Shown here: positions 5,678-43,128 of the stretch, one piece after another
How the letters are laid out: each line of letters begins with the position of its first letter
How positions within the stretch are numbered: the stretch's first letter is position 1
Assembly: GCA_003931895.1 (NCBI GenBank)
Contig: RRZV01000065.1
Span: 1 to 46,347, forward strand
DNA: 46,347 nt
Reading direction: 5' to 3'
Origin: Mesohalobacter salilacus
GTDB taxonomy: Bacteria > Bacteroidota > Bacteroidia > Flavobacteriales > Flavobacteriaceae
The notes under the pieces: model-generated
What the model saw: the letters and a program-made list of their open reading frames with translations, nothing else
What the model was told of the DNA's origin: nothing
The model's database searches: none
Made by a program: the position numbers and the translations under genes

Positions 5678-5751
5678 GGTCGCGTAGCTCAGCTGGATAG
5701 AGCATTTGCCTTCTAAGCAAACGGTCACAGGTTCGAATCCTGTCGCGATCA
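5678..5751 (+). tRNA. tRNA-Arg (anticodon TCT)
   Basis: A complete 74-nt cloverleaf: acceptor GGTCGCG pairs with CGCGATC (one G-U pair), D arm GCTC/GAGC, anticodon stem TTTGC/GCAAA with loop CTTCTAA (anticodon TCT at 5712-5714, reads AGA), T arm ACAGG-TTCGAAT-CCTGT, discriminator A. CCA is not encoded. A strong terminator follows directly. It is the only intact member of a four-copy array (5569, 5678, 6026, 6223). Confidence 0.96.
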
Positions 5752-5752
5752 C

Positions 5753-6092
<340 letters not shown>

Positions 6093-6096
6093 CTTT

Positions 6097-11348: not shown

Positions 11349-11480
11349 CTAAATAGAGACTTCATCATATCCACTTTTAATGAGGCTAGAAATGATTTTA
11401 AACCTCATGTTCGCCTTAATAACATTGCTGGAATGTGCGCGGGATAACGATTGATGCTCCATTGTGAAGTGAATGTGATT
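11349..11480 (-). pseudogene. Decayed copy of a cupin gene 3' end
   Basis: The minus-strand sequence ends FKIIS-x-LIKSGYDEVSI-stop, almost identical to the C-terminus of the intact cupin gene at 14106-14543, and nucleotide identity is high over about 130 bp. Further upstream it has stops and frameshifts in what would be IIIPAHSSNIIKA. It is a partial duplication left 2.6 kb from the intact gene, with the same orientation. Confidence 0.8.
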
Positions 11481-11566: not shown

Positions 11567-11770
11567 CTATAAACGATAGTATACAGTTAACGTATTAATA
11601 ATAACTCTAGAACCAGCTATTTTTGGCAAAATGAAATTGCCTTCTAAAAATTGTATAAAACCAAATGTGGTAATAACAACAAAAGCATAACTAGCACTAT
11701 CTTTTGCAGTCAGAGCAATTATTACTGAAATAAGAGAGCCAATAATAATCCGTACCCAGGGAATAAACAA
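11567..11770 (-). pseudogene. Fragment of an AI-2E family transporter
   Basis: A 67-codon minus-strand frame whose translation contains IIIGSLISVIIALTAKDSA and FIQFLEGNFILPKIAGSRV, matching the late membrane region of AI-2E/PerM family transporters (normally about 350 residues). The N-terminal two thirds and the last helices are missing. No other part of the transporter is visible nearby, so this is a gene remnant. The ORF may be translatable but would not make a functional transporter. Confidence 0.75.
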
Positions 11771-11834
11771 TAAAAGGTCGAAGAGAGTTTAATTTACACT
11801 TCCGTTAACACCCACCTATTATAAATGAATTGCA

Positions 11835-12212
11835 TTAATTGCGGGCAGTATATCTTCTTTTACAATACTTAAATAATTTTTGTAGCTTCATGAAAATAGT
11901 TGTCACGCCATTAAATGAACTTATATCTCTGATTTTTGATGTTTCAATGGCTTTAAAACGATCAAATAATTCTTGATTTCCTAAACCTATTATTGAAAGT
12001 CGCTTTAGTCTTATAATTGATTCATTATGTAATTTGGCAATGGCATTGACACCGGCACTATCAATCTTTTCTAAATTAACAATGCTTAAAATAAGATCAC
12101 TTTTAGTATTGAAAATATTTTGAAATTTATTTTGGAATACATGCACATTTAATTTATTAAGTGAACCCTCTAAATCATATACATTATTGCTTTTTTTAAT
12201 TATAAGTGTCAT
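11835..12212 (-). CDS. STAS-domain protein (anti-sigma factor antagonist-like)
   Basis: 125 residues with one STAS fold: strand LIIKKSNNVYDLEGSLN, helix HVFQNKFQNIF, strand DLILSIVNLEKIDSAGVNAIAKLH and strand LSIIGLGNQELFDRFKAIE. In SpoIIAA/RsbV-type proteins the phosphorylated serine sits in D-S-x-G; here the motif is I-D-S-A-G-V at about residues 51-56, so the Ser is kept. That suggests regulation by a serine kinase in a partner-switching system, but no kinase or anti-sigma factor gene lies in the window. Many flavobacterial stress clusters hold such solitary STAS genes. Confidence 0.8.
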   Translation of the reverse strand: MTLIIKKSNNVYDLEGSLNKLNVHVFQNKFQNIFNTKSDLILSIVNLEKIDSAGVNAIAKLHNESIIRLKRLSIIGLGNQELFDRFKAIETSKIRDISSFNGVTTIFMKLQKLFKYCKRRYTARN

Positions 12213-14105: not shown

Positions 14106-14543
14106 TTAAATAGAGACTTCATCATATCCACTTTTAATGACGGTAGAAATGATTTTAAATCTCGTATTCGCCTTTATAATATTGCTGGAATGAGCGGGTA
14201 TAATAATTGATTCTCCTGTGTTGAGTATATGCGATTGTCCGTTTATAACAATTTCAGCTTTCCCATCAATGACTTGAATAAAAGTGTCGAAAGGAGACGT
14301 TTTTTCAGTTAGTGCTTCCCCCGAATCAAACGAGGATACGGTCACATTTCCAGTGGTTTTTTTAATAATGGTCTTGATGACAACCGAATTTGGGATATAC
14401 TCAATAATCTCTAAAATGATAAAGGTTGCATTCTTTTCTTGTTCTAAACTTTTTGTATTTAAGCTTGGAGCTAGTTTATCTTTCAACATTTTTGATATAT
14501 CTGATTTATCTGATTTGGCATTGGCTTTTTTTTCTTTCGACAT
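14106..14543 (-). CDS. Cupin-domain protein
   Basis: 145 residues. The first 30 are lysine- and serine-rich and probably disordered. The cupin barrel covers about 55-140: PFDTFIQVIDGKAEIVINGQ is motif 1 and LNTGESIIIPAHSSNIIKA is motif 2, but the metal-binding histidines of motif 1 are mostly lost, so an enzyme role is doubtful. Small cupins of this kind are frequent in bacterial stress clusters. The gene's 3' end is duplicated, in decayed form, at 11349-11480. It lies 105 bp upstream of the lipocalin gene on the same strand. Confidence 0.85.
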   Translation of the reverse strand: MSKEKKANAKSDKSDISKMLKDKLAPSLNTKSLEQEKNATFIILEIIEYIPNSVVIKTIIKKTTGNVTVSSFDSGEALTEKTSPFDTFIQVIDGKAEIVINGQSHILNTGESIIIPAHSSNIIKANTRFKIISTVIKSGYDEVSI

Positions 14544-33038: not shown

Positions 33039-33129
33039 TAGAAACAATATCATTTTTTATAATTATTAATTAACCTGATTAATGCTAAATTTATTTTCAT
33101 AAACCTTAGTTTTGAAAAAATTAAAATTT

Positions 33130-35091
33130 ATGAAATATATTTTTACTTTATTATTGAGTTTTTGCTTTTTAAACCTCATTGCTCAAAACCCTACAATCAA
33201 TGAACTTGATGCCGATACAGACGGCGTTGATACTAAAGAATTTATTGAAATTAAAACCGATAATCCATTTTCACCTTTAGATGGTTATCTGCTTGTCTTG
33301 TTTAATGGGTCGAGTAGTGGTGGCGATTTGAGTTATTTTAACCTTGATTTAGATGGATTTACAACTGATATCAACGGACTTTTTGTTTTAGGCGCTTCTG
33401 AAGTTTCGCCTATACCTGATTTTGAATTACAATTAAATACTATACAAAATGGTGCTGATGCTGTGGCAATTTATCAAGCTAACGAATCTGATATGCCTAT
33501 TGGCACTTTAGCCACAACCACAAATTTAGTCGATGCTTTGGTTTATGGCACTAACGATGCTGATGATACGGGTTTACTTAACTTATTAGGACTACAACAA
33601 CAAATTGATGAAAGCGCAAATGGCAATAAAGACTTTGAATCGATTCAACGTGCAAATGACGGCAGTTGGTTTGTAGATACACCAACACCAAAACAACTCA
33701 ATGACGGTTCAGGTGTAATTCTTAATGGCATTACTATTTCTACTAATCAAGAGGTTTTTGATGAAGGAGAAACTGTTATAATTACATTAACTACAGAAGA
33801 TCCAGTAGTCAATGATATTACTTTTAACTTAGATTTAAACAATGGCGATTTTAATAATGCCGATTATACTGGAGATGCGTTTATAGACTTTCAAACTGGC
33901 GATACCACAGGTCAAACTCAAATCAATATTTTGGCCGATGGTGTAGCCGAAGAAGATGAATTTATGGAAATCAATATATCAAATCTTCCACCTGAATTTA
34001 TTTCAAATAATAATAATGTTAGCATAATTATCATTGACGCTGATTTTACCACCTCTAATTTTGGCTCACCGCTAAATCCTACATTTGATAATGTAGCAAG
34101 TAATGCACCAAGTGATTATTATGACAACCTAGACGGATTAGCAGGTAATGCGTTGATACAAGGTATTCAAAACTTAGTATCTGAAAATAGTGTTGTCAGA
34201 ACTCACACTTACACCGATATTATTGATATTTTAAAAGAAGCCGATCAAAATCCAGACAATAACAATCAAGTTTGGTTAGTTTACACCGAACAGCCTAGAG
34301 CAAAGTTTTTATTTCAAACCGGATCTTCAAGTATTGGTAAGTGGAATAGAGAACACACTTTTCCACGTTCAAGAGGTGGTTTTTCAAGTATTGAAGATGA
34401 TGATATAGCCGATGGTATTAATGTGTGGTGGGAAACCAACGCCGATTCACTAAGGCATGCCAATTCCGACGCTCATGGTTTACGTGCAGCTGACGCTGGT
34501 GAAAACTCTAGTCGAGGAAATCAACATTACGGACAGTATATTGGCCCACCATCAAATACAGGAAGCTTTAAAGGCGATGTCGCTCGTGGGGTTTTCTTTT
34601 TAGCTATACGTTACAACGACTTAGATGTTGTAAACGGTTTTCCATCAGTTACAGGTGAACTTGGCGATTTAGCAACCTTACTCAACTGGCATCAACAAGA
34701 TCCGCCAGATGATTTTGAAATGAATAGAAATAATGTCATATACAACTGGCAAAAAAACCGCAATCCATTTATTGATTTCCCTAATCTCGTCGATTTTATT
34801 TGGGGAACTGAATTTGGTAACCCTTGGAATCAAAATTTAAGCATAGATGAAAAAAGTATTGATGACATTGTTGTATTTCCAAATCCAGTCATAAACGAAA
34901 ACATACAAATTAAAGGCCTTAATCCATCAGAAACTTATCAGTTTAAGCTTCTTGATATTTCGGGTAAAACCATTTGGTCTAATTCTCAACAAGGAAATTC
35001 TGAGATACCTATTACGGTCAAGTCTGGTCTTTATTTTCTGAGTATTTCTGATACGAAATCAACACAGGTTGAGCGAATTATTGTGAGGTGA
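33130..35091 (+). CDS. Secreted endonuclease I with lamin-tail and Calx-beta-like domains and T9SS sorting signal
   Basis: 653 residues from the ATG at 33130 (an in-frame TTG at 33112 would only lengthen the signal peptide). Order: signal peptide 1-19; lamin-tail-like domain about 20-190 (INELDADTDGVDTKEFIEI); Calx-beta-like domain about 198-303; endonuclease I (EndA/NucM) domain about 328-560 with the metal-site motif WNREHTFPRS (405-414); C-terminal type IX secretion sorting domain from about 578 (VVFPNPV... ending LYFLSISDTK and VERIIVR). It probably degrades extracellular DNA for phosphate and nucleosides. A TAGTTTTG box lies at 33107-33114. Its last 25 bp are part of the 44-bp direct repeat copied at 42327. 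Confidence 0.95.
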   Translation: MKYIFTLLLSFCFLNLIAQNPTINELDADTDGVDTKEFIEIKTDNPFSPLDGYLLVLFNGSSSGGDLSYFNLDLDGFTTDINGLFVLGASEVSPIPDFELQLNTIQNGADAVAIYQANESDMPIGTLATTTNLVDALVYGTNDADDTGLLNLLGLQQQIDESANGNKDFESIQRANDGSWFVDTPTPKQLNDGSGVILNGITISTNQEVFDEGETVIITLTTEDPVVNDITFNLDLNNGDFNNADYTGDAFIDFQTGDTTGQTQINILADGVAEEDEFMEINISNLPPEFISNNNNVSIIIIDADFTTSNFGSPLNPTFDNVASNAPSDYYDNLDGLAGNALIQGIQNLVSENSVVRTHTYTDIIDILKEADQNPDNNNQVWLVYTEQPRAKFLFQTGSSSIGKWNREHTFPRSRGGFSSIEDDDIADGINVWWETNADSLRHANSDAHGLRAADAGENSSRGNQHYGQYIGPPSNTGSFKGDVARGVFFLAIRYNDLDVVNGFPSVTGELGDLATLLNWHQQDPPDDFEMNRNNVIYNWQKNRNPFIDFPNLVDFIWGTEFGNPWNQNLSIDEKSIDDIVVFPNPVINENIQIKGLNPSETYQFKLLDISGKTIWSNSQQGNSEIPITVKSGLYFLSISDTKSTQVERIIVR

Positions 35092-35110
35092 TAGATTCTG
35101 ATTCTGACCC
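35067..35110. repeat. 44-bp direct repeat, left copy
   Basis: It covers the last 25 bp of the endonuclease gene, including the stop, and the next 19 bp. Identical to 42327-42370 at all 44 positions, with mismatches directly outside on both sides. Confidence 0.95.
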
Positions 35111-35160
35111 CGATGGCGCTTGACTTTGACGAGTGCTAAAGTGCTAAAAATCATATTATT

Positions 35161-35255
35161 TTACCAAACCATAAACCCAGCATCATTAAATTATAAAAAG
35201 AATGATTGTCTTGAAAACTTCTAGCACTAGAATATTTCCAATCCAAAAATAGATT
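35161..35255 (-). pseudogene. RAYT transposase 3'-end remnant
   Basis: The translation gives KYSSARSFQDNHS and, after a one-base frame change, DDAGFMVW-stop, matching KYSSARNFQDDHS...DDAGFMGW-stop of the RAYT fragment at 36364-36708. The flanking GAGTGCTAAA..TCATATT is shared too. It lies at the inner edge of the left direct repeat; the RAYT N-terminus is at the inner side of the right one. Confidence 0.85.
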
Positions 35256-35282
35256 GACTATAACCTTACACAAAACTAATAT

Positions 35283-35310
35283 GGCACGGACTACAAGTCC
35301 ACACTATCGG
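35283..35310. repeat. REP-like hairpin (GGACT-ACA-AGTCC type)
   Basis: GGACT/AGTCC with a 3-nt loop (35288-35300) followed by CTATCGGG. Related forms are GGATTGCAAGTCTGC near 36271 and GGACTGCAAGTC at 39649-39660. It lies just downstream of the ParE toxin gene and could also stop its transcript. Confidence 0.55.
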
Positions 35311-35335
35311 GATTATTTTTGTGCGGTTGGGTTGT

Positions 35336-35638
35336 TTAGTATTCTAATGGACTTCTTTTAATATGTCGAACCCTCACAATAACAATTTCTTTTTCCTTTA
35401 CCTGATAGGCTACTCTTAAACTATATTTCTCAAAGGCTCTAATATCACCTTTATTGTTTTTACGGTATTTGTCTAAAGGATAACGTGTTGGTACTTTTGA
35501 GAGTGTTTTGGTAATTCCTAATATTTCAGACTTTACTTTTTTAGCTGATTTTAAGGAGTCTTCTTTGATGTAATTGTAGTGTTTTTCTAAAGCTTTTTGA
35601 GCTGTTTTACTCCAAACCACCTTTAATTCTTCTACCAT
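35336..35638 (-). CDS. RelE/ParE-family toxin
   Basis: 100 residues with the ParE fold pattern: an early VVWSKTAQKALEKHYNYI helix, SAKKVKSEILGITKTLSKVPTRYPLD, then FEKYSLRVAYQVKEKEIVIV and RVRHIKRSPLEY. The C-terminal Arg/His-rich strand is typical. Such toxins inhibit gyrase or cleave mRNA and are neutralised by a co-encoded antitoxin. The start overlaps the antitoxin stop by 7 bp, the usual layout of antitoxin then toxin. It sits near the left edge of the island and may help to maintain it. Confidence 0.9.
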   Translation of the reverse strand: MVEELKVVWSKTAQKALEKHYNYIKEDSLKSAKKVKSEILGITKTLSKVPTRYPLDKYRKNNKGDIRAFEKYSLRVAYQVKEKEIVIVRVRHIKRSPLEY

Positions 35639-35862
35639 TCTTTGGCCATTTTTTCTACTTCTTCTTGTGTATAAAATTCGCCTCTCTCAACTTCGGCAAT
35701 AGCCTGATCAATCTCTTTATTATATTGTTCTATTGTATCTCGCTCTAAAACTTCTTCTTCGCTGTAGGATGATGCCATAGCTTTTACCAGTTTTAAAAAC
35801 CGATAATCTGCTTTGTTCTTAATATACTCTAATACGCTTTGTCTTAAATCTAATGCTTCCAT
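35632..35862 (-). CDS. Antitoxin of the ParE-type module
   Basis: 76 residues, acidic and helical: MEALDLRQSVLEYIKNKADY, then AMASSYSEEEVLERDTIEQY and EIDQAIAEVERGEFYTQEEV. The last motif (E-x-x-x-G-x-x-x-T-x-E-E) is common in antitoxins paired with ParE/RelE toxins in Bacteroidota. The expected role is to bind and mask the toxin and repress the operon through its N-terminus. First gene of the pair. No operator palindrome was recognised upstream. Confidence 0.88.
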   Translation of the reverse strand: MEALDLRQSVLEYIKNKADYRFLKLVKAMASSYSEEEVLERDTIEQYNKEIDQAIAEVERGEFYTQEEVEKMAKEW

Positions 35863-35902
35863 AACTCAAAAAATTTATACCGTAAAATTACAAATAATCT
35901 TC

Positions 35903-36088
35903 TTAACTAAACGGATGAAAATTATTAATCGTATCATGCAGGCTTTCTAAATCGTCTTGCTGGCATCTATCAGTAGAACTGATGTATTTGTGTCCTGCTA
36001 AGTATTGGCTTCTTCGTAGTCTGTGAATTTTTAACCAATGAACAATCACACTTGTTTGTATCTGCTTTACTGGTTTAACCCAATCCCT
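35903..36088 (-). pseudogene. C-terminal tail of a tyrosine recombinase, catalytic Tyr changed to Cys
   Basis: An open frame of 61 codons whose translation includes QTSVIVHWLKIHRLRRSQYL and AGHKYISSTDRCQQDD, ending NNFHPFS-stop. It matches the last 60 residues of Bacteroidota tyrosine recombinases (V-I-x-x-W-L-K...A-G-H-x-Y-x-S-S-T-E-x-Y). The second catalytic His is present in A-G-H; the nucleophile position reads Cys. Upstream the frame is closed by TAA, so the N-terminal region is gone. It may be what is left of the integrase that moved the island. Confidence 0.8.
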
Positions 36089-36207
36089 TTATCTATAGGC
36101 GTTGTTCCATCTCCTGTGCTGAACCAAGCCGAAGCATTGGAACATTTTCCCGCCTGATCGGACGGGCAAGTGTCGCAGTTTTCCCGAGTTGTAAAGACTA
36201 CAAAACA
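36083..36207. repeat. Dispersed island repeat, copy 1 (copy 2 at 37925-38015)
   Basis: Shared words in the same order: CCCTTTATC, AGGCGTTGT, GGAACA, GTCGC, TTTTCCCGAGTTGTAA and a GTAGTC/AGACTAC end. Copy 1 is longer by two blocks, one being an imperfect 18-bp palindrome (36149-36166, CCCGCCTGATCGGACGGG). Non-coding as far as I can see. Confidence 0.7.
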
Positions 36208-36231
36208 AAAAAAACTTATGCCTCATAAAAC

Positions 36232-36257
36232 AAAAAAAACACCTAATCTCTTAAGTG
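36232..36257 (-). terminator. Rho-independent terminator on the minus strand
   Basis: Minus-strand CACTTAA - GAGA - TTAGGTG (7 pairs, one G-U) followed by eight T residues. It is related to the elements at 37880 and 39583, and lies after the RAYT pieces. Confidence 0.75.
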
Positions 36258-36312
36258 GCTATACTTGGCACGGATTGCAAGTCTGCAATATCTTGTTTTT
36301 TTGGTTTGTATA

Positions 36313-36340
36313 GCACTCGTTGCAAACGAGCACTAGCGGG
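36313..36340. repeat. REP-like hairpin, copy A
   Basis: CTCGTT - GCA - AACGAG (36316-36330) followed by CACTAGCGGG. Two close relatives lie at 37067-37094 and 42299-42326. All three are next to RAYT gene ends, as expected for REP sequences mobilised by RAYT. Confidence 0.75.
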
Positions 36341-36741
36341 GGAGTGCTAAAACTCATATTTTTTTACCAACCCATAAACCCAGCATCATCTATTTTTAAA
36401 ACAGAATGATCATCTTGAAAGTTTCTAGCACTAGAATATTTGCAATCTATTGGGTTTGTGACAAAACCACTTTTTACCGGATTGGCATGAATATAATCTA
36501 TTTTTTGTTTGATGACCTTGTCGCTCCATAATTCAACGGGCTTGTTGTGATGTTGCCAAAATTGGTAAGTATTGACATTACTTTTCTTTTGTCCTGCACG
36601 TTTAAACATATAAAGCAACCATTCTTTTCTGCTTTCTTGTGAATTATTCTCAATAGCTTGTATGACTTTTTTTGATGTAAATTTCTTATAATCTCGTAAA
36701 AGCTCCATAGGCTGGTCTTTTGCTGACCTAAAAATGAACTA

Positions 36742-36893
36742 CCCCGAGGCAGAGCCATCAGGGTATCTAATAAGAATAATTTTTAATATTTCGACGCTGA
36801 GCGTCAGGGTATTGAATCCAAAATCCCGCTGAAATAGCGGGATTAGTTCAACTAACAACTTTGAATTAATAGCTTCGCTATTTTTCAAAGTTG
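36742..36893. mobile_element. About 150-bp hairpin-rich insertion within the RAYT gene
   Basis: It contains four inverted repeats in a row: TACCCCGAGGC..ATCAGGGTA (about 36751), GACGC-TGA-GCGTC (36793-36805), AATCCCGCT-GAAAT-AGCGGGATT (36822-36844) and CAACTTTGA..AATAGC-TTC-GCTATT..TCAAAGTTG (about 36857-36894). The RAYT coding sequence resumes on both sides, with CATTTT at each junction. Confidence 0.75.
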
Positions 36894-37066
36894 AGTTTCA
36901 CTAATAAAATGGCAGTGGCTTGGCATAAAGCAATAACAATACAATTCCATGCCTTTGTGTTCTCTACAGTAATCTATACTACTTGCTAATATTTTCAAAT
37001 ACTTATGCCTTATAAAAACATCTATCCAATATACTGTAGCAAAACTAACAAAGTATAACACTCTTT

Positions 37067-37094
37067 GGACTCGTTGTAAACGAGCGCTAGCGGG
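37067..37094. repeat. REP-like hairpin, copy B
   Basis: CTCGTT - GTA - AACGAG (37070-37084) followed by CGCTAGCGGGG. It directly abuts the start of RAYT homology in the split gene. Confidence 0.75.
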
Positions 37095-37127
37095 GTTCCA
37101 AAACCCAGCCATTGAAGATAAATATTA

Positions 37128-37298
37128 TTAGCTGTAGTGTTCAGTCATCCATTGTTTAGGTAAACCAGTACTTTTCAACATTTTATTTGCTTTATCTTGT
37201 TTTTCAGGAAACTGTATTCTTTCATCAAATTCGTTTAATCTTTTGTCAATACTTACTATTGGTATTTTCCTTTTTTTTAATTCGTCGGTAATCTTCAT
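37128..37298 (-). CDS. 56-residue partner of the DUF6934 protein
   Basis: A small gene, ATG at 37298 and TAA at 37128: MKITDELKKRKIPIVSIDKR, then NEFDERIQFPEKQDKANKML, and an end GLPKQWMTEHYS. It is charged and probably helical. It lies 29 bp after the DUF6934 gene on the same strand. Similar short ORFs seem to accompany DUF6934 genes in other Bacteroidota (recollection, not checked). The layout of a small charged protein plus a 150-residue protein resembles toxin-antitoxin modules, but no toxicity is known. Confidence 0.65.
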   Translation of the reverse strand: MKITDELKKRKIPIVSIDKRLNEFDERIQFPEKQDKANKMLKSTGLPKQWMTEHYS

Positions 37299-37327
37299 GA
37301 TTTTAATATTTATATAAAGTTACAAAT

Positions 37328-37771
37328 TTATTTTTTTCTACGAATCAAAAACCCTTGATATTCAACATCCTTTTGAAAATCTTCCCATTCACCATTTATT
37401 TCACCTAAGATTTCAAAATCAGCAATTACTTCATCTATAAATTTTGTAATTCCAATACGATAAAGTCTTGTTCTCGATTTTGTACTTCCAGTAGCATAAA
37501 TTAATGCATTAGGATATTTGTCTGTAAAGGCATATACTGTTGCTACTACCGTTGCCAAAACTTTTTTGCTATCACCATTATTTGAAATAACTTTATCATT
37601 TATATCACCTGTAAGTTTATCTTTATCACCAAAGGCAAGATTATAAAGTCCATTTAAGTTTGTTGGTTGAAATCTTACAAGTTTATGAATCAGTCCTTTT
37701 TCACCCTCGCTTGTAAATTCAAAAGTTGTCATTTTTTCACTTGATGACAGCGGGTATTTAGGTAAGTTCAT
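37328..37771 (-). CDS. DUF6934 family protein
   Basis: 147 residues. Core features are TTFEFTSEGEKGLIHKLVRF, YNLAFGDKDKLTGDINDKVI, SNNGDSKKVLATVVATVYAF and YATGSTKSRTRLYRIGITKF, which match the DUF6934 family of Bacteroidota. The G-S-T-x-S-R-T-R-L-Y motif is the most conserved part and could bind nucleic acid or nucleotide, which is inference. Length is normal. First gene of a two-gene unit with the 56-residue partner, within the island, and preceded by the minus-strand terminator at 37880. Families with this genome distribution are often toxin-antitoxin or defence related. Confidence 0.8.
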   Translation of the reverse strand: MNLPKYPLSSSEKMTTFEFTSEGEKGLIHKLVRFQPTNLNGLYNLAFGDKDKLTGDINDKVISNNGDSKKVLATVVATVYAFTDKYPNALIYATGSTKSRTRLYRIGITKFIDEVIADFEILGEINGEWEDFQKDVEYQGFLIRRKK

Positions 37772-37879
37772 TTCATGAATTTTTTATAATGCAATTTGCG
37801 TTTTTTACTTTCACATCACAGCTAACTTGTAAATATAGCAATTTTAAATAATTGATGCTTTTGTTAGAGACTATTACAC

Positions 37880-37910
37880 AAAAAACCACCCGAAATCAAA
37901 CTTGAGTGGC
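37880..37910 (-). terminator. Rho-independent terminator after the Rhs tip / membrane protein pair
   Basis: Minus-strand CCACTC / GGGTGG stem (one G-U pair), 12-nt loop, then six T residues. The surrounding 75 bp (37829-37905) are repeated at 39527-39605, again after an Rhs-associated gene. Confidence 0.7.
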
Positions 37911-38055
37911 TCATACCTTCATAACCAAAAAACCCTTTATCCGCAGGCGTTGTCCCAAATTTGGAACACTTTTGTCGCGTTTTTCCCGAGTTGTAACTGG
38001 CTTTGTAGTCTTATAATCTAAGCACTTTTACTGTGTTTTTTCTAATTTGCATTAA

Positions 38056-38433
38056 TTAGTTTTTACACCCTGGAAACTTTTCCCATACTTTACCTTTATC
38101 TGATTTTGATAGCTTACAACCACACATTAATTCTGAAAATTCGATATCTTCATTAAACTTTGCCAAATATATATCTCCAATATTCATATTATTTAATTCA
38201 GATGAACCACAAACCTCTTTCTCTTTATATTGTTTGTTAATGTATTTAAAAACAAAATCTGCTGAACTTATCCTGCCATATCTTATTTTTGAAATGGTAA
38301 CTGCTATATAAATATGATTCTCATCAAGATGATCTTCACTAATTTTTCTTTCAATGAATTTATAAATAGCGTATGATATAAATATTATAATAAGTGAAAT
38401 GAAAAATATTTCTTTTTTTCTTTTAGCAGTCAT
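38056..38433 (-). CDS. Membrane-anchored candidate immunity protein for the upstream Rhs tip
   Basis: 125 residues from the ATG at 38433 (an ATG at 38445 adds MIVV). One membrane helix, IFFISLIIIFISYAIYKFIE, lies near residues 8-27; the rest is an outward domain with DENHIYIAVTISKIRYGRIS and two Cys-containing segments (KEVCGSS and ELMCGCKLSK, plus a final PGCKN). I do not recognise the family. It overlaps the stop of the Rhs tip gene by 11 bp (ATGACTGCTAA), the usual position of the immunity gene in Rhs/polymorphic toxin loci. The assignment as immunity protein rests on position only. Confidence 0.6.
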   Translation of the reverse strand: MTAKRKKEIFFISLIIIFISYAIYKFIERKISEDHLDENHIYIAVTISKIRYGRISSADFVFKYINKQYKEKEVCGSSELNNMNIGDIYLAKFNEDIEFSELMCGCKLSKSDKGKVWEKFPGCKN

Positions 38434-39265
38434 CACCACAATCATTTTGAGTATTATCTTTAGAGATATTTTCTTTTTTCATTTGTTCATTTACAGCCTT
38501 TTCTGTTGTAGAAATTACACTTTCGTATATTACATCAAAAAGTACTTTAGCATTTTTGTCTAAATCCTTTGTATCTATTAGAGATGTATTTTTTAACTCA
38601 ATACCTTTAGCTATCAAACCTGTTGTTAAATCAATAGCAACATCTCTATCTTCCTTGTTTATTCCGACAATGAGCATCTTACCTTCAGATAAATTAAAAT
38701 CAACAAAACCTCCAACAACCTCACCAGCTCCATTAATCAATACCCCATCGAACATTACATCGGCTACATCAACATCACCTGTAATTGCCATTTGAGTACT
38801 AGCACTAATAATCATTTTTGTAGCTATCACTTCACCACTAGCTGTCGTAAATACAAGAGGAGCTATTTCAACGGCTATTGGTGCAAAAAGCATAGCTCCT
38901 GCTGCTCCAGCCAAGTATTTTGCACCTGTCTCTAATTCATGAGTAGCTTCTTCTACTCTTTTTATTGCTTTATCTTGTTGCTCTTTAAATTCCGTCATTT
39001 GCTTAGTAGTACCCCCTGGAAAAGCAGGATCAACTTTGTCTATCCCTGACCATTTCCCGAACCAATCTGTTAAAAAATGGAATTCACTTCTTAAGTCAAA
39101 TTTTTCTTCCTCTTCATTAGCATTTAAATTGTCTAAATTTTCTAGACCTTCTAATTCAATTGAATGGATTACTTGATTTGCAGAAAACTGATAAGATGAA
39201 TAAAAAGGATATTCCCTAAACAACGGATCCACAGCAAAGAACCTCCCCAATCTCGGATCATGCAT
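38423..39265 (-). CDS. Rhs C-terminal tip (orphan), putative toxin
   Basis: 280 codons from MHDPRLGRFFAVDPLFREYP, which is the end of the Rhs repeat-associated core (R-M-H-D-P-R-L-G-R-F-x-x-x-D-P-L). After SSYQFSANQVIHSIELEGLE comes the variable tip: an acidic linker, a helical stretch with EFKEQQDKAIKRVEEATHEL, a hydrophobic segment YLAGAAGAMLFAPIAVEIAP that could insert in membranes, and an Asp/Lys-rich end. The listed Met lies inside the core; the real upstream part (39266-39440) is broken by short insertions. It could act as a reservoir cassette for recombination with a complete Rhs gene. Toxin activity is inferred. Confidence 0.75.
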   Translation of the reverse strand: MHDPRLGRFFAVDPLFREYPFYSSYQFSANQVIHSIELEGLENLDNLNANEEEEKFDLRSEFHFLTDWFGKWSGIDKVDPAFPGGTTKQMTEFKEQQDKAIKRVEEATHELETGAKYLAGAAGAMLFAPIAVEIAPLVFTTASGEVIATKMIISASTQMAITGDVDVADVMFDGVLINGAGEVVGGFVDFNLSEGKMLIVGINKEDRDVAIDLTTGLIAKGIELKNTSLIDTKDLDKNAKVLFDVIYESVISTTEKAVNEQMKKENISKDNTQNDCGDDC

Positions 39266-39333
39266 CCTAAATTTATAGTTTATAGAATTCCCTTCCCCTT
39301 TAATCTCGTCGTCTTTTTCTTGGCCTTGGAAGC

Positions 39334-39353
39334 CCTGCCTGCCGTCAGGCAGG
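39334..39353. repeat. 20-bp perfect palindromic insertion in an Rhs core
   Basis: CCTGCCTG-CCGT-CAGGCAGG. The sequence on each side aligns without gap to the paralogue at 41361-41392, so a 20-bp unit was inserted (or lost there); it shifts the reading frame. Confidence 0.88.
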
Positions 39354-39398
39354 CGTAACGGTAAGAATCTACACTACCATGACGGTTGGGTAGGAGCA

Positions 39399-39423
39399 CT
39401 TCGACTACGCTCAGTGCAGCGCA
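39399..39423. repeat. 25-bp insertion with CACTTCGACTACGCTCAGTG word
   Basis: Between GGGTAGGAGCA and TGCCATA, which are contiguous in the paralogue at 41407-41424. The inserted word, with short inverted ends CACT/AGTG, is of a type often dispersed in flavobacterial intergenic DNA. Confidence 0.85.
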
Positions 39424-39582
39424 TGCCATAGGAAAACTAATCTTATGCATTTTTTTGCCCGATTGCCTTTTTTTGATAGAGCCTTATTTCAGGTATTTTT
39501 AAAAGAACGTGTTATGTCTCTCTTAGACCTTGTAAATATAGTGATTTTAAATAATTGATGCTTTTGTAAGAGACTATTACAT

Positions 39583-39629
39583 AAAAAAAAACCACCTAAA
39601 CCTGTCCGCCTATGGAGGATTTGAGTGGC
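39583..39629 (-). terminator. Rho-independent terminator after the lipoprotein gene
   Basis: Minus-strand CCACTCAAATCC...GGTTTAGGTGG pairing, followed by nine T residues. The loop holds the palindrome-like TCCGCCTATGGAGGA, absent from the related terminator at 37880. Confidence 0.65.
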
Positions 39630-39672
39630 TTTATACTTTCTTAATCTCGGACTGCAAGTCAGTACGATTAGC

Positions 39673-40380
39673 TCACCAATTAACATACTGATTAACTTGA
39701 ATATATTTAACTGCTTTTTCATTATCTACAATACTGTCAGTATGAATAAAAACATTTTCTTCAATTATAGCTTTGCTTGAACCGATATAATAACCATTTT
39801 CAATTTGACTATTATTCTTAAAGTAAATTTCATTTTTAAGACTATCGTATTCTGTGAAAATTTTTAATACAATAAATCTAGTTTCACCTAATTTCAAATC
39901 TTTACTATCATAAGGCGAGTAGTATTTTAATTTACCATTATTTATTACATGAAAACAACTTTTAGAATATTCAATGTTACCATTAGTTACTTTGATTTTT
40001 TGATTTAAAATATTTAAAGTGTCAATTAAAAGATATTGTTCTTTCTTTGATAGCATTCCATTTTTATCATAATAAAACCACCAATCAATTTTTTTATTAT
40101 AAAAACTATAACCTGTAGATTTAACTTTACCATTTAGATGATAATATATATTTTTTAATGAGTCTCCATTTTTAATTATTTCAAGTTTCTTTACATTACC
40201 ATCCTTGAAATATTTTATAATAGTATCAATTTTTTTTCCTTTTCGATAAACACCCTTTTCTTTAATCTCCCCTGACTCATAATAAGATTTATATTTACCA
40301 TTAGGTAATTTTTTTTTATGTTTTGTATTACAGGAGTACACAATAAGTAAAAAGCAATAAATTAATATTAATCTATTCAT
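39673..40380 (-). CDS. Lipoprotein with MORN-like repeats, candidate immunity protein
   Basis: 235 residues. The signal peptide ends at LIVYSC (Cys17), so the mature protein is lipid-anchored. Residues 25-115 contain repeats of the form G-x-x-K-x-Y-Y-x-x-G (NGKYKSYYESGEIKEKGVYR; KYFKDGNVKKLEII; YYHLNGKVKSTGYS; FYYDKNGMLSKKEQ), as in YwqK/MORN-type proteins. The C-terminal half is different and unknown. It overlaps the stop of the large Rhs ORF by 8 bp (ATGAATAG), the canonical immunity-gene position; MORN-like proteins are often found beside toxin genes. It would protect the periplasmic side. Position-based inference. Confidence 0.7.
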   Translation of the reverse strand: MNRLILIYCFLLIVYSCNTKHKKKLPNGKYKSYYESGEIKEKGVYRKGKKIDTIIKYFKDGNVKKLEIIKNGDSLKNIYYHLNGKVKSTGYSFYNKKIDWWFYYDKNGMLSKKEQYLLIDTLNILNQKIKVTNGNIEYSKSCFHVINNGKLKYYSPYDSKDLKLGETRFIVLKIFTEYDSLKNEIYFKNNSQIENGYYIGSSKAIIEENVFIHTDSIVDNEKAVKYIQVNQYVNW

Positions 40381-42238
40381 TTGTTGTATTCTTTAAACTA
40401 TCAGCATCACTTTCATATTGTTCTTTAAATTGCTTTTGCAATTTCTGAAATTGACTCTCAGGGACATAGATTTCTTGCATGATATATTCAACATTTATGG
40501 ACTTTGTAGGTGAAAGATAATGTCCTCCACGTGAGATATTAATACCTGTTGCTTTCTTATATCTTAATTTAACTTTTGGTTCACCATTATTTTCTATTGA
40601 CACTATACCTTCGCGTATATCTATTGAAGTATTTTCAATGCCAGCATCTTTAAGTACTTTTGTTATAAAACTCTTTGTAAAGCTTGCAACTTCCTTTGGT
40701 CCAATTTTATTCGGTTTAAACTTAGTTCTATTTTTTGCTAAAAGTGTTAATAACATAACGCCCTCTGCGTCTTTTTCATCGATTTCAGCATTTGATGTTT
40801 TATCTTTTTTGTTAGGTCGTGCCAAGCCATCTTTACCGCCAGGGGTTGTGAATATATAGCCATCTTTTACAGTCATAGCTGGAGCGTCACCTTCCAAGTC
40901 TATATTAGGAATATAAGGAACCCAATCAAAAAATTTCGATCTTGTATATTTTGTAACATAATTAATAGTTTCAGGTTTAGTCTCAATACTACCGTCTTCA
41001 TTTATTGTAATCACTTGAGTTCGAACTTTATCTCTGAACTCCCAAAATTCCACGCCATAACCTCCATCATTTAGCCTATGACTCAGTTTTTTGTCTAATT
41101 TATCTTCGTCAACAACAGCTATCATAGTGTGAGTTTCATTAGTTTTATAATTAACTATTGTTATTATTAACCATTCTGTGTTACCATCTGGATCAACGTA
41201 TAGATTCGTATTGTTATTAAATGCTTTATACGGTGATTTACTTGGTTGCTTAAAAAATTTTAAATCTGGGGAAAACCATCTTCCAATTCTTGGATCATAC
41301 ATTCTCGCCCCAAAATCATAACTACTACCATCTATTCCCTTAACTTCATCATCTTTCTCCATTCCATTAAACCCATACCGGTAAGAATCCACACTACCAT
41401 GACGGTTGGGTAGGAGCATGCCATAAGGATAGTAATCATTATATGAAAGAACGTCTGGTACAAAGGTACCAAAAAAATCGATTTGGTTGCCGGTTTGCGC
41501 TATTTCTGTGACATCGGCTATGCTAAAGTTGGATATGGTAAAGGTTTCTACTTGGCTAAAGTCACTGCCTGTTATTATATGTACAGTGTATTCTCCACTT
41601 TCACTGCTGGTAAATGTGGTGGCAATGGTTTGAGTATTGTTGGCTGCAGTGCTATATATCGTTTGACCGCTTGGGCTTAAAAGATATATTCTTAGACTTG
41701 TAGTAAAGTTATCACGATCAAGGTCAAACTGTAAAGTGTATTGGCGTCCGGCTTCGAGTGGGTAAGTGCCGACAGCGCCAGACTCACGGTTGTAACAAGT
41801 GACGTCTATACTAAAGTCTTCATTATATCTAATGGACGCTTCTCCTGTTCTGCTCCAGTATTCTGTAATCTCTTCGTTAGTACCAAACCATTTTGTGCCT
41901 ACAAATTTGGCAGGAAGTTTTCTGTCACTTATTACAGAAAGCACATTGCCAAGGTGGTTAGAGAGTTCGTATTTTTTGTCGCCTACTATACGGTTTATTT
42001 TATTCAAGTTAATGTTACCCGGTACGTTAGGGTCATTGTCTTGGGCGTCTAAGAAATCTGGGTGGCCGTCGCTATCGGTGTCATCGTTTGTTATATCTCC
42101 ATCTCCGTTTTCGTCTTCTTCGTAAGTGAGGTAGCCGTCATTGTCATCGTCTATATCAACAAAGTTGGGCATACCGTCGTTGTAGAAACTTACAAAGTAT
42201 AACCCAATCTTGTTATGAAATTTATATTTTCTACTCAC
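40373..42238 (-). CDS. Chimeric Rhs-type protein with C-terminal putative toxin tip
   Basis: 621 codons, GTG start. Residues 1-18 (MSRKYKFHNKIGLYFVSF) are the N-terminus of a RAYT transposase, not a signal peptide. Residues 21-72 form an Asp-rich thrombospondin-3-like calcium-binding stretch. Residues 82-265 are Rhs-type with YELSNHLGNVLSVISDRKLP and a carbohydrate-binding-like beta domain. Residues 266-355 are the Rhs core (YYPYGMLLPNRHGSVDSYRY ... ARMYDPRIGRWFSPDL). From 356 on is a unique 266-residue tip with no family I know. Without a secretion signal and most YD repeats it may be a displaced tip rather than a working effector. It overlaps the lipoprotein gene. Confidence 0.8.
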   Translation of the reverse strand: MSRKYKFHNKIGLYFVSFYNDGMPNFVDIDDDNDGYLTYEEDENGDGDITNDDTDSDGHPDFLDAQDNDPNVPGNINLNKINRIVGDKKYELSNHLGNVLSVISDRKLPAKFVGTKWFGTNEEITEYWSRTGEASIRYNEDFSIDVTCYNRESGAVGTYPLEAGRQYTLQFDLDRDNFTTSLRIYLLSPSGQTIYSTAANNTQTIATTFTSSESGEYTVHIITGSDFSQVETFTISNFSIADVTEIAQTGNQIDFFGTFVPDVLSYNDYYPYGMLLPNRHGSVDSYRYGFNGMEKDDEVKGIDGSSYDFGARMYDPRIGRWFSPDLKFFKQPSKSPYKAFNNNTNLYVDPDGNTEWLIITIVNYKTNETHTMIAVVDEDKLDKKLSHRLNDGGYGVEFWEFRDKVRTQVITINEDGSIETKPETINYVTKYTRSKFFDWVPYIPNIDLEGDAPAMTVKDGYIFTTPGGKDGLARPNKKDKTSNAEIDEKDAEGVMLLTLLAKNRTKFKPNKIGPKEVASFTKSFITKVLKDAGIENTSIDIREGIVSIENNGEPKVKLRYKKATGINISRGGHYLSPTKSINVEYIMQEIYVPESQFQKLQKQFKEQYESDADSLKNTTNE

Positions 42239-42298
42239 TTTGCTAAAATAATAAAAGACTGCATAATGACACTCTTTTTTTCTGAAAACTTACTCTTT

Positions 42299-42326
42299 GC
42301 ACTCGTTGCAAATGAGCGCTAGCGAG
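42299..42326. repeat. REP-like hairpin, copy C
   Basis: CTCGTT - GCA - AATGAG (42302-42316; one G-U pair on the RNA level) followed by CGCTAGCGAG. It touches the right 44-bp direct repeat and lies upstream of the RAYT N-terminal fragment at 42185-42238. Confidence 0.75.
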
Positions 42327-42370
42327 GGTTGAGCGAATTATTGTGAGGTGATAGATTCTGATTCTGACCC
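42327..42370. repeat. 44-bp direct repeat, right copy
   Basis: Identical to 35067-35110, at an offset of exactly 7,260 bp. It carries a detached 25-bp copy of the endonuclease gene end. Confidence 0.95.
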
Positions 42371-42408: not shown

Positions 42409-43128
42409 TTACTCAGGATTAATTGACTGTGTTTTACGTTTAGTTTTAAACGGAATTAAATAGCTGAGGGAATAACCCCAACCTGCACCGATTGAGCTAA
42501 AATCATTTGTGATGTTAAAACCAGGAATAAAAATATTATCGAAATTTTGCAGTTCCGTTTCACTGACTAAAAATTTAAGTTGCACATGGGCTGCAGCGTA
42601 AACGTTTTTAAACAACTCCACTTTAAACCCAAATTGAAATTCAGACCAAATGGCCGATAAATTGTTGAATTCACGACTTACAACTTGAGTATCAGGTTCA
42701 AAAGTATTGTCAGTAGTAAAAAAATTAAATTCTTTTAATGTTTGTGAATAGGAGGACAATCCAATTCTAAAGCCGCCATAGATTTGGTTTTGCATTCCAA
42801 TCCAGTTTTTGTAGAAATTATAATTCGCTCCTAATTTAATGTAACTGCCATCAGAGTCCACCACAAGATTGCTTTCGTCAAATGTATATTGGTCATTTCC
42901 TAATTCCGCAGCGAGGTAAATTTCGTCAGTAAATCTATAGTCAGCATTAACTTCAAAACCCGTATAATTATCGTCAAAAGCGGTTCGGGAAAGTTTAAAC
43001 AAATCTACACCAAATGAAGCGCCATATCGTTCTTTATAGACAAGACTATCATTCTGAGCAAAACTTTGGTTTATTGTTGAAAATAAACAAAAGCTAATGC
43101 AAAATAAAAACGTGTGTATTTTGTTCAT
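42409..43128 (-). CDS. DUF6048 family outer-membrane beta-barrel protein
   Basis: 239 residues with a signal peptide ending at SFAQ (about 25). The mature part is a series of amphipathic strands: RYGASFGVDLFKLSRTAFDD, GFEVNADYRFTDEIYLAAEL, YIKLGANYNFYKNW, YGGFRIGLSSYSQ, WSEFQFGFKVELFKNVYAAA and GWGYSLSYLIPF near the end, as in small outer-membrane barrels. It matches DUF6048, a flavobacterial family that regularly follows DUF6452 and rlmD. Its start overlaps the upstream gene by 35 bp, so translation is coupled. Function unknown. Confidence 0.85.
   Translation of the reverse strand: MNKIHTFLFCISFCLFSTINQSFAQNDSLVYKERYGASFGVDLFKLSRTAFDDNYTGFEVNADYRFTDEIYLAAELGNDQYTFDESNLVVDSDGSYIKLGANYNFYKNWIGMQNQIYGGFRIGLSSYSQTLKEFNFFTTDNTFEPDTQVVSREFNNLSAIWSEFQFGFKVELFKNVYAAAHVQLKFLVSETELQNFDNIFIPGFNITNDFSSIGAGWGYSLSYLIPFKTKRKTQSINPE

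Follow-up and report, generated by a model that had tools for sequence, protein, structure and literature searches.

An Rhs cassette island with REP-like ends between two 44-bp direct repeats at the 3' end of an endonuclease gene in Mesohalobacter salilacus

Rhs arrays carry displaced C-terminal toxin/immunity cassettes. Genes of the REP-associated tyrosine transposases (RAYT, TnpAREP) are described as always flanked by two inverted REPs (PMC2817692), RAYT subclasses 2.4 and 2.6 have been placed in Bacteroidetes (PMC6006769), and REPtrons, it is said, do not seem to move as one unit. IS200/IS605 elements are described as lacking larger target duplications (PMC2817692), and under the single-strand model no duplication of the target is expected; the movement of REPs, and the capacity of RAYTs beyond a REP doublet, appear as unsettled in the literature consulted (PMC2817692, PMC6006769, PMC3116915). 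REP-bounded cargo with long target duplications is not reported in the titles and abstracts of the literature searched.

The island described here lies in a 46,347-nucleotide stretch of Mesohalobacter salilacus DNA (hereafter the window) and has something in common with each of these systems. With RAYT elements and REPINs it shares pieces of a RAYT gene and inverted REP hairpins at both borders, with G-rich feet outward; it differs in that its RAYT is split by ~6.9 kb of cargo and that 44-bp direct repeats, of a kind present at 0 of 48 measured RAYT loci, stand outside. With the single-strand transposons of the IS200/IS605 type it shares a related Y1 transposase family, and differs by the 44-bp duplication at its site. 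The TIGR03696 core, the serial cassettes and a close homology to the Rhs array of another genome of the genus (G010) are those of an Rhs array, whereas the set is truncated and, with REPs as its borders, occupies a new locus. What recalls an integrase-type island with attL and attR is the presence of direct repeats at a gene 3' end, an integrase remnant and a toxin-antitoxin pair, but REP feet form the edges, the remnant of the recombinase lies within the cargo and the repeated core is species-specific. The island works in the manner of a composite element whose ends are REPs: its membership of the RAYT elements is not proven, since the gene is split and the insertion, with its 44-bp repeats, differs from a clean one lacking long direct repeats; it is not an IS200/IS605 element, because of the duplication; and by its edges it is not an integrase island. 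The features, in window coordinates and with strand, are:

33112..35091, +, secreted endonuclease I gene with T9SS sorting tail (Pfam PF04231, PF18962; TIGR04183)
35067..35110, +, left 44-bp repeat copy, contiguous with the endonuclease gene
35108..35136, -, left REP-like hairpin, diverged, whose outer foot CATCGGGG adjoins the left repeat (by-eye comparison with RAYT 3' REPs)
35137..35250, -, 3' tail of a RAYT gene (88% identity to the tail of the inner RAYT remnant, 59 + 49 nt)
35336..35638, -, ParE-type toxin of a toxin-antitoxin pair (PF05016, E 1.8e-12)
35632..35862, -, probable antitoxin (weak match to NF050811, E 0.0023, below cut-off)
35906..36088, -, C-terminal remnant of a tyrosine recombinase, Tyr -> Cys (61% to a 295-aa protein of genome G019, query residues 6-61 of 61)
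36315..36341, +, internal REP
36364..37112, -, second, broken RAYT remnant (frames 36364-36708 and 36885-37112; NF047646, E 7.4e-10, below cut-off)
37069..37095, +, internal REP
37328..37771, -, DUF6934 protein (PF22028, E 3.6e-57)
38056..39442, -, Rhs-type C-terminal cassette 2 (frame 38423-39265, core remnant to ~39442; core motif MHDPRLGRFFAVDP, DNA homology to the G010 array)
38056-38445, -, short gene, by its position the putative partner of Rhs cassette 2
39673..40380, -, MORN_2-repeat lipoprotein-like gene behind Rhs cassette 1, by its position the probable partner (PF07661, E 1.7e-4, below cut-off)
40373..42187, -, Rhs core and C-terminal cassette 1 (TIGR03696, E 2.4e-11, above cut-off)
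42187..42238, -, RAYT N-terminus of 17 aa, in frame with the Rhs protein
42301..42327, +, right REP (1 mismatch to the search pattern), whose outer foot GCTAGCGAGG adjoins the right repeat
42327..42370, +, right 44-bp repeat copy, contiguous with the native terminator-like hairpin before DUF6048
42409..43128, -, DUF6048 gene, second native neighbour of the island (PF19515, E 1.7e-76)

The two 44-bp copies (35067-35110 and 42327-42370, spacing 7260) are 100% identical, and outside them the sequences mismatch at once: the bases immediately 5' read AACACA on the left and GCTAGCGA on the right, those immediately 3' CGATGG and TAAAAC, respectively. With up to 3 mismatches allowed, the 2.84-Mb draft genome contains exactly two occurrences of the 44-mer (control 0) and none besides, and the longest exact direct repeat arising by chance in 50 third-order Markov copies of the window measures 19 bp. 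Five further exact repeat pairs of at least 30 bp are present within the window, none of which (0/5) flanks the island. The endonuclease frame stops at 35091, which places 25 bp including the stop codon inside the left copy. An earlier note on this DNA had described two identical copies with mismatched surroundings, the left one containing the last 25 bp of the endonuclease gene and the right one a detached duplicate; all of this holds, and the endonuclease retains its own end. GG and CCC at the ends of the repeat can be assigned either to the target or to the REP foot, so that the duplicated target is 39-44 bp long. The right joint of the island has an AGG microhomology.

A DUF6048 protein search over 80 genomes matched 60, the own genome among them, and 37 DUF6048 loci (L009-L045) from 29 other genomes were inspected, eight of these loci being longer stretches of genomes already included. 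Endonuclease and DUF6048 genes are adjacent and convergent in 3 of the 29 (G010, G011 and G026), with a short gap in G010 and G011 and a gap of ~0.6 kb in G026, the latter carrying, on our own reading, an outer-membrane-protein-like frame. The island is absent from this junction in all three. In the stretches of the remaining 26 genomes, mostly 1.5 kb per side, the endonuclease was not found. The DUF6048 proteins most similar to that of the window in the protein search are those of G010 (88%) and G011 (85%), both of the same genus, and the junctions of these two genomes possess a single diverged repeat copy and no island, the copy differing from the 44-mer at 9 of 44 aligned positions in G011 and 15 of 44 in G010. 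Because of this single copy without island, and judged from these junctions, the island is an insertion in the lineage of the window and the repeat is its duplicated target, the second copy being contemporaneous with the insertion or later. This supports the claim of the earlier note that an accessory island has been inserted at a gene 3' end, and the comparison of the endonuclease-DUF6048 region across related genomes, which that note had proposed, returned the islandless single copy in G010 and G011.

RAYT genes of Flavobacteriaceae are commonly located between two inverted REPs with G-rich feet outward, in the usual arrangement CCCCGCTAGCGC..RAYT..GCGCTAGCGGGG. The inner edges of both 44-bp repeats adjoin REP feet, and the two REPs are likewise inverted with their feet outward, the right one with 1 mismatch to the search pattern, the left one a diverged variant that the pattern missed and that was recognised by eye only. 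The middle of the RAYT is absent at the borders, where 17 N-terminal residues and ~110 bp of 3' tail are all that remains. Since both halves lie on the minus strand and in the right order, the island ends read as two halves of one RAYT element split by ~6.9 kb. The RAYT family search of the own genome gave two broken pieces only, both in the island (E up to 1e-20); the inner RAYT remnant is in two parts, which have 88% and 75% identity to the RAYT of G010 and a stop in each. A lone RAYT 3' tail with a REP-like end is present at L046:1430-1508 (G000:C30) and is 98% identical to the left end of the island over 41 bp.

By its predicted genes the cargo is a decaying Rhs cassette array. It possesses an Rhs core with variable C-terminus and small partner gene, TIGR03696 scoring above cut-off (40373-42238); cassette 2 is recognised via homology alone and has no family match of its own in the Pfam and NCBIfam scans. 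The DNA of the Rhs core and cassette 1 is 91-93% identical to two places of the G010 array, and the scan of genome contigs found no relative of the Rhs piece. A DDE composite transposon was rejected, with no DDE transposase match among 8 island proteins in Pfam or 8 in NCBIfam and with a repeat of 44 bp. Sequence searches did not find the island in phages, and 7 plasmid records match it, covering at most 9% of the query among the 6 matches listed.

The G010 array is of like kind, ~25 kb long, and has the same REP-RAYT-Rhs edge as the right part of the island, with 89-93% identity over ~0.9 kb. Its flanks are, on our own reading of the frames, glpD-like and pccB-like genes. The G010 border retains ~124 RAYT residues, against 17 in the window, where we infer the RAYT-Rhs fusion to be like a 490-bp deletion derivative of the G010 border. 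The glpD-pccB-like locus is empty in G011, and apparently also in the present genome, because its contigs C64 and C70, with one of the flanking genes each, overlap by 57 bp. As the G010 array stands at this locus, apparently empty here, the composite is taken to occupy separate loci in related species, with the same REP at its border, and the island suggests a route by which orphan Rhs cassettes may travel between loci. Only one border is common to both, the far border of the G010 array lying near a microsatellite and without an outward REP. This degenerate AACAACAG/AACAATAG microsatellite (L055:14895-15060) is located at the pccB-side border of the array; a shorter stretch is present on the glpD side, and similar stretches occur elsewhere in these genomes.

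Duplication of the target by RAYT elements was measured at loci from genome contigs, comprising the best 80 of 531 relatives, of which 79 offered room for the test; in 48 an inverted arm pair could be measured (45 REP-like, 46 without stop). A flanking repeat beyond the shuffled control occurs at none of these 48 loci, also with 20-bp slack. The longest edge-anchored repeats are 8 bp (L154 and L156, the REP sequence itself), then 6 bp, within the shuffled range; with slack the longest is 10 bp (L217, REP-like), then 8 bp, with a control of up to 8. The test reaches 20 bp from the arms, and the arms of L180, L215 and L220 are not clearly REP and thus little informative. As edge repeats stay within the chance range at all 48 loci, ordinary RAYT elements do not generate duplications of this sort; ordinary RAYT target duplication is rejected as the source of the 44 bp, which is an outlier. 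A second non-REP repeat of at least 13 bp with REP motifs at both inner edges is absent from 135 partly overlapping regions (2.4 Mb). Several candidates for a second example were discarded: L186 consists of REP-on-REP matches, and the 14-bp match of L128, from an earlier both-edge search that missed the window's own pair, overlaps the REP foot itself. On our own reading, L136, with a 26-bp repeat on either side of a RAYT, resembles a diverged tandem gene end, L112 resembles tandem paralogues and L210 a repeated promoter region; in L122 a terminator repeat, exact over 46 bp and longer if mismatches are allowed, surrounds an Rhs/RAYT/toxin-antitoxin region, and L140 contains repeated helix-turn-helix gene ends. 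A single REP on contig C19 has no readable duplication; G011 has the REP there, and G010 and G026 fail to align across it.

REP ends coincide with the edges of local duplications in 11 of 184 cases, against a mean of 1.08 and maximum of 4 for nearby control points (200 draws), in regions picked for RAYTs or REPs, with the prompting window among the eleven, and with REP-motif matches, matches below 25 bp or 85% identity and 14 of 127 regions (as overlapping) left out. L106 contributes two of the eleven from one duplication, the REP of the L056 case is probably Rhs coding sequence, and both REP edges of L172 are probably Rhs core pieces. At L215 the flank of the other copy is taken up again past the RAYT gene, which is what plain insertion into a paralogue would give; this was not seen in the remaining 10 cases, of which L056 and L172 contain additional Rhs copies. 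A cruder count, with a detector that missed the window's own right REP, places 39 of 323 REP ends and 13 of 323 random positions at duplication edges. The clearest such duplication (L106:9471-9735 and 11698-11962, genome G296) is a 265-bp gene-start segment, 96% identical and 2.2 kb apart, one copy of which lies exactly between a REPIN foot and the foot of a RAYT 5' REP. In a Winogradskyella MAG (L153:9583-10920, filtered out of the 11/184 count) the last 34 bp of a gene recur twice beyond a RAYT element, each time right behind REP feet and at a distance of 113 bp from one another.

The earlier note had also placed a recombinase tail with a mutated nucleophile inside the left end. The tail is real: the G019 recombinase reads SSTERYLQDDLE where the window has SSTDRCQQDDLE at the aligned position, and the Tyr replaced by Cys is presumably the nucleophile of tyrosine recombinases. 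Relatives are present in 7 of 27 genomes of the genus, the own included. In G019 the full-length gene stands in tandem with a second recombinase-like gene, next to genes for a 509-aa protein and a helix-turn-helix protein; the set may be a module for cassette shuffling, and a similar module is found at L140. The G019 Rhs array (L238:4798-17634) has a 6.5-kb, 99% identical tandem duplication that contains this module. Because the remnant is internal to the RAYT tail and its full-length relatives stand inside an Rhs array, it looks like array cargo and not a border gene. That the repeats are attL and attR of a tyrosine-recombinase element which entered the gene 3' end, its integrase now a dead remnant, is improbable in our estimation, even with the perfect 44-bp repeat at a gene 3' end, the single copy at the empty site, the recombinase tail 0.8 kb inside the left end, the toxin-antitoxin pair in the cargo and the absence of the cargo from relatives at this site all pointing that way. 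Both edges are outer REP feet of the split RAYT element, the place of a complete integrase near one end is taken by a 61-aa open tail with Tyr -> Cys, merely 61 recombinase residues remaining, and full-length relatives belong to the two-recombinase module inside an Rhs array (L238; similar L140). The 44 bp are, moreover, species-specific, with 9/44 (G011) and 15/44 (G010) positions different, and an attP core would need to hold 44 bp of the species' own gene end and 3' UTR; neither a circular form nor a second element came to light. The attL/attR-like ends proposed in the earlier note are not supported by these data; its second option, a duplication by recombination, may be the origin of the repeat.

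The reading we prefer, to which we allow about an even chance, is a one-step staggered join, in which an Rhs array bounded by the REP ends of a split RAYT entered a terminator-like hairpin and duplicated 39-44 nt. The insertion point would be the terminator-like hairpin in the endonuclease-DUF6048 intergenic region. The 3' foot of each outward REP would be connected to target DNA at a G|T step, the top-strand join following CACAGG and preceding TTGAG, the bottom-strand join following TTTTAGGG and preceding TCAGAATC. Because the two joins would lie 39-44 nt apart on opposite strands, gap filling would duplicate the gene 3' end and UTR as a direct repeat. A single event would have made both, the agent being either a RAYT supplied in trans or the repair of breaks that arose at the REP hairpins. 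Such a repeat is expected from two strand transfers of the Y1 type, one for each REP, but also from break repair at two hairpins or from a later template switch; the Y1-type transfer would require a RAYT in trans, because the family search of this genome yielded no RAYT sequence beyond two broken pieces. In favour of the one-step join are the site's single copy in two relatives, the presence of just two 44-mer copies in the genome, edges made of REP and RAYT sequence, the REP-RAYT-Rhs edge common with G010 and the excess of REP feet at edges of local duplications; the absence of edge repeats at 48 RAYT loci, the lack of a second both-edge case, the diverged left REP, the broken own RAYTs, the far border of the G010 array without outward REP and the lack of larger target duplications in IS200/IS605 elements count against it. 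Alternatively, in a course of events we regard as possible but rather unlikely, a RAYT element, later loaded with Rhs genes, inserted cleanly behind GACCC, and the 44 bp were then copied to the far side by a template switch or an illegitimate crossover between its right REP hairpin and the gene end carried by a sister chromosome or an incoming one. The measured RAYT loci as a rule show clean insertion, L153 has its gene-end 34 bp repeated directly behind REP feet, with the last two copies 113 bp apart, and the AGG microhomology at the right joint and the enrichment of REP ends at duplication edges point in the same direction; such a second event must, however, start exactly at the REP foot and rejoin native sequence exactly at the first insertion point. 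A false joining of the island into the endonuclease-DUF6048 gap during assembly is highly improbable: the draft genome has 106 contigs and the cargo is repeat-rich, but the exact 57-bp overlap of C64 and C70, a single overlap, suggests an assembly word longer than the 44-bp repeat, so that both junctions would have needed spanning words, and a false join leaves the precise duplication ending at REP feet unexplained.

If the one-step join extends to other Flavobacteriaceae, their REP/RAYT system would not be confined to spreading short hairpins: pairs of REP feet could form the ends of multi-kb cargo, especially Rhs cassettes, and be joined to opposite target strands at points some tens of nucleotides apart, with a long duplication of the target as the outcome. 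This wider claim is doubtful and is offered tentatively; the window would be the first clean double-ended case, and L106, L153, L132, L138 and L218 would be one-ended products. Should a RAYT have moved the island, the statement that REPtrons do not appear to transpose as a unit would need an exception. The empty site in relatives, the REP feet at both edges and the 44-bp duplication together provide a concrete test substrate for the movement of cargo by RAYTs.

Two shorter repeats are located in other parts of the window. An exact 34-bp direct repeat (11350-11383 and 14107-14140) has one of its copies at the 3' end of a cupin-like gene (14106-14543, minus strand); the likeness continues beyond the 34 bp in diverged form, and the sequence from 11350 onward looks like a decayed paralogue. 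A 32-bp repeat (5721-5752 and 6062-6093) looks like the 3' ends of neighbouring tRNA genes.
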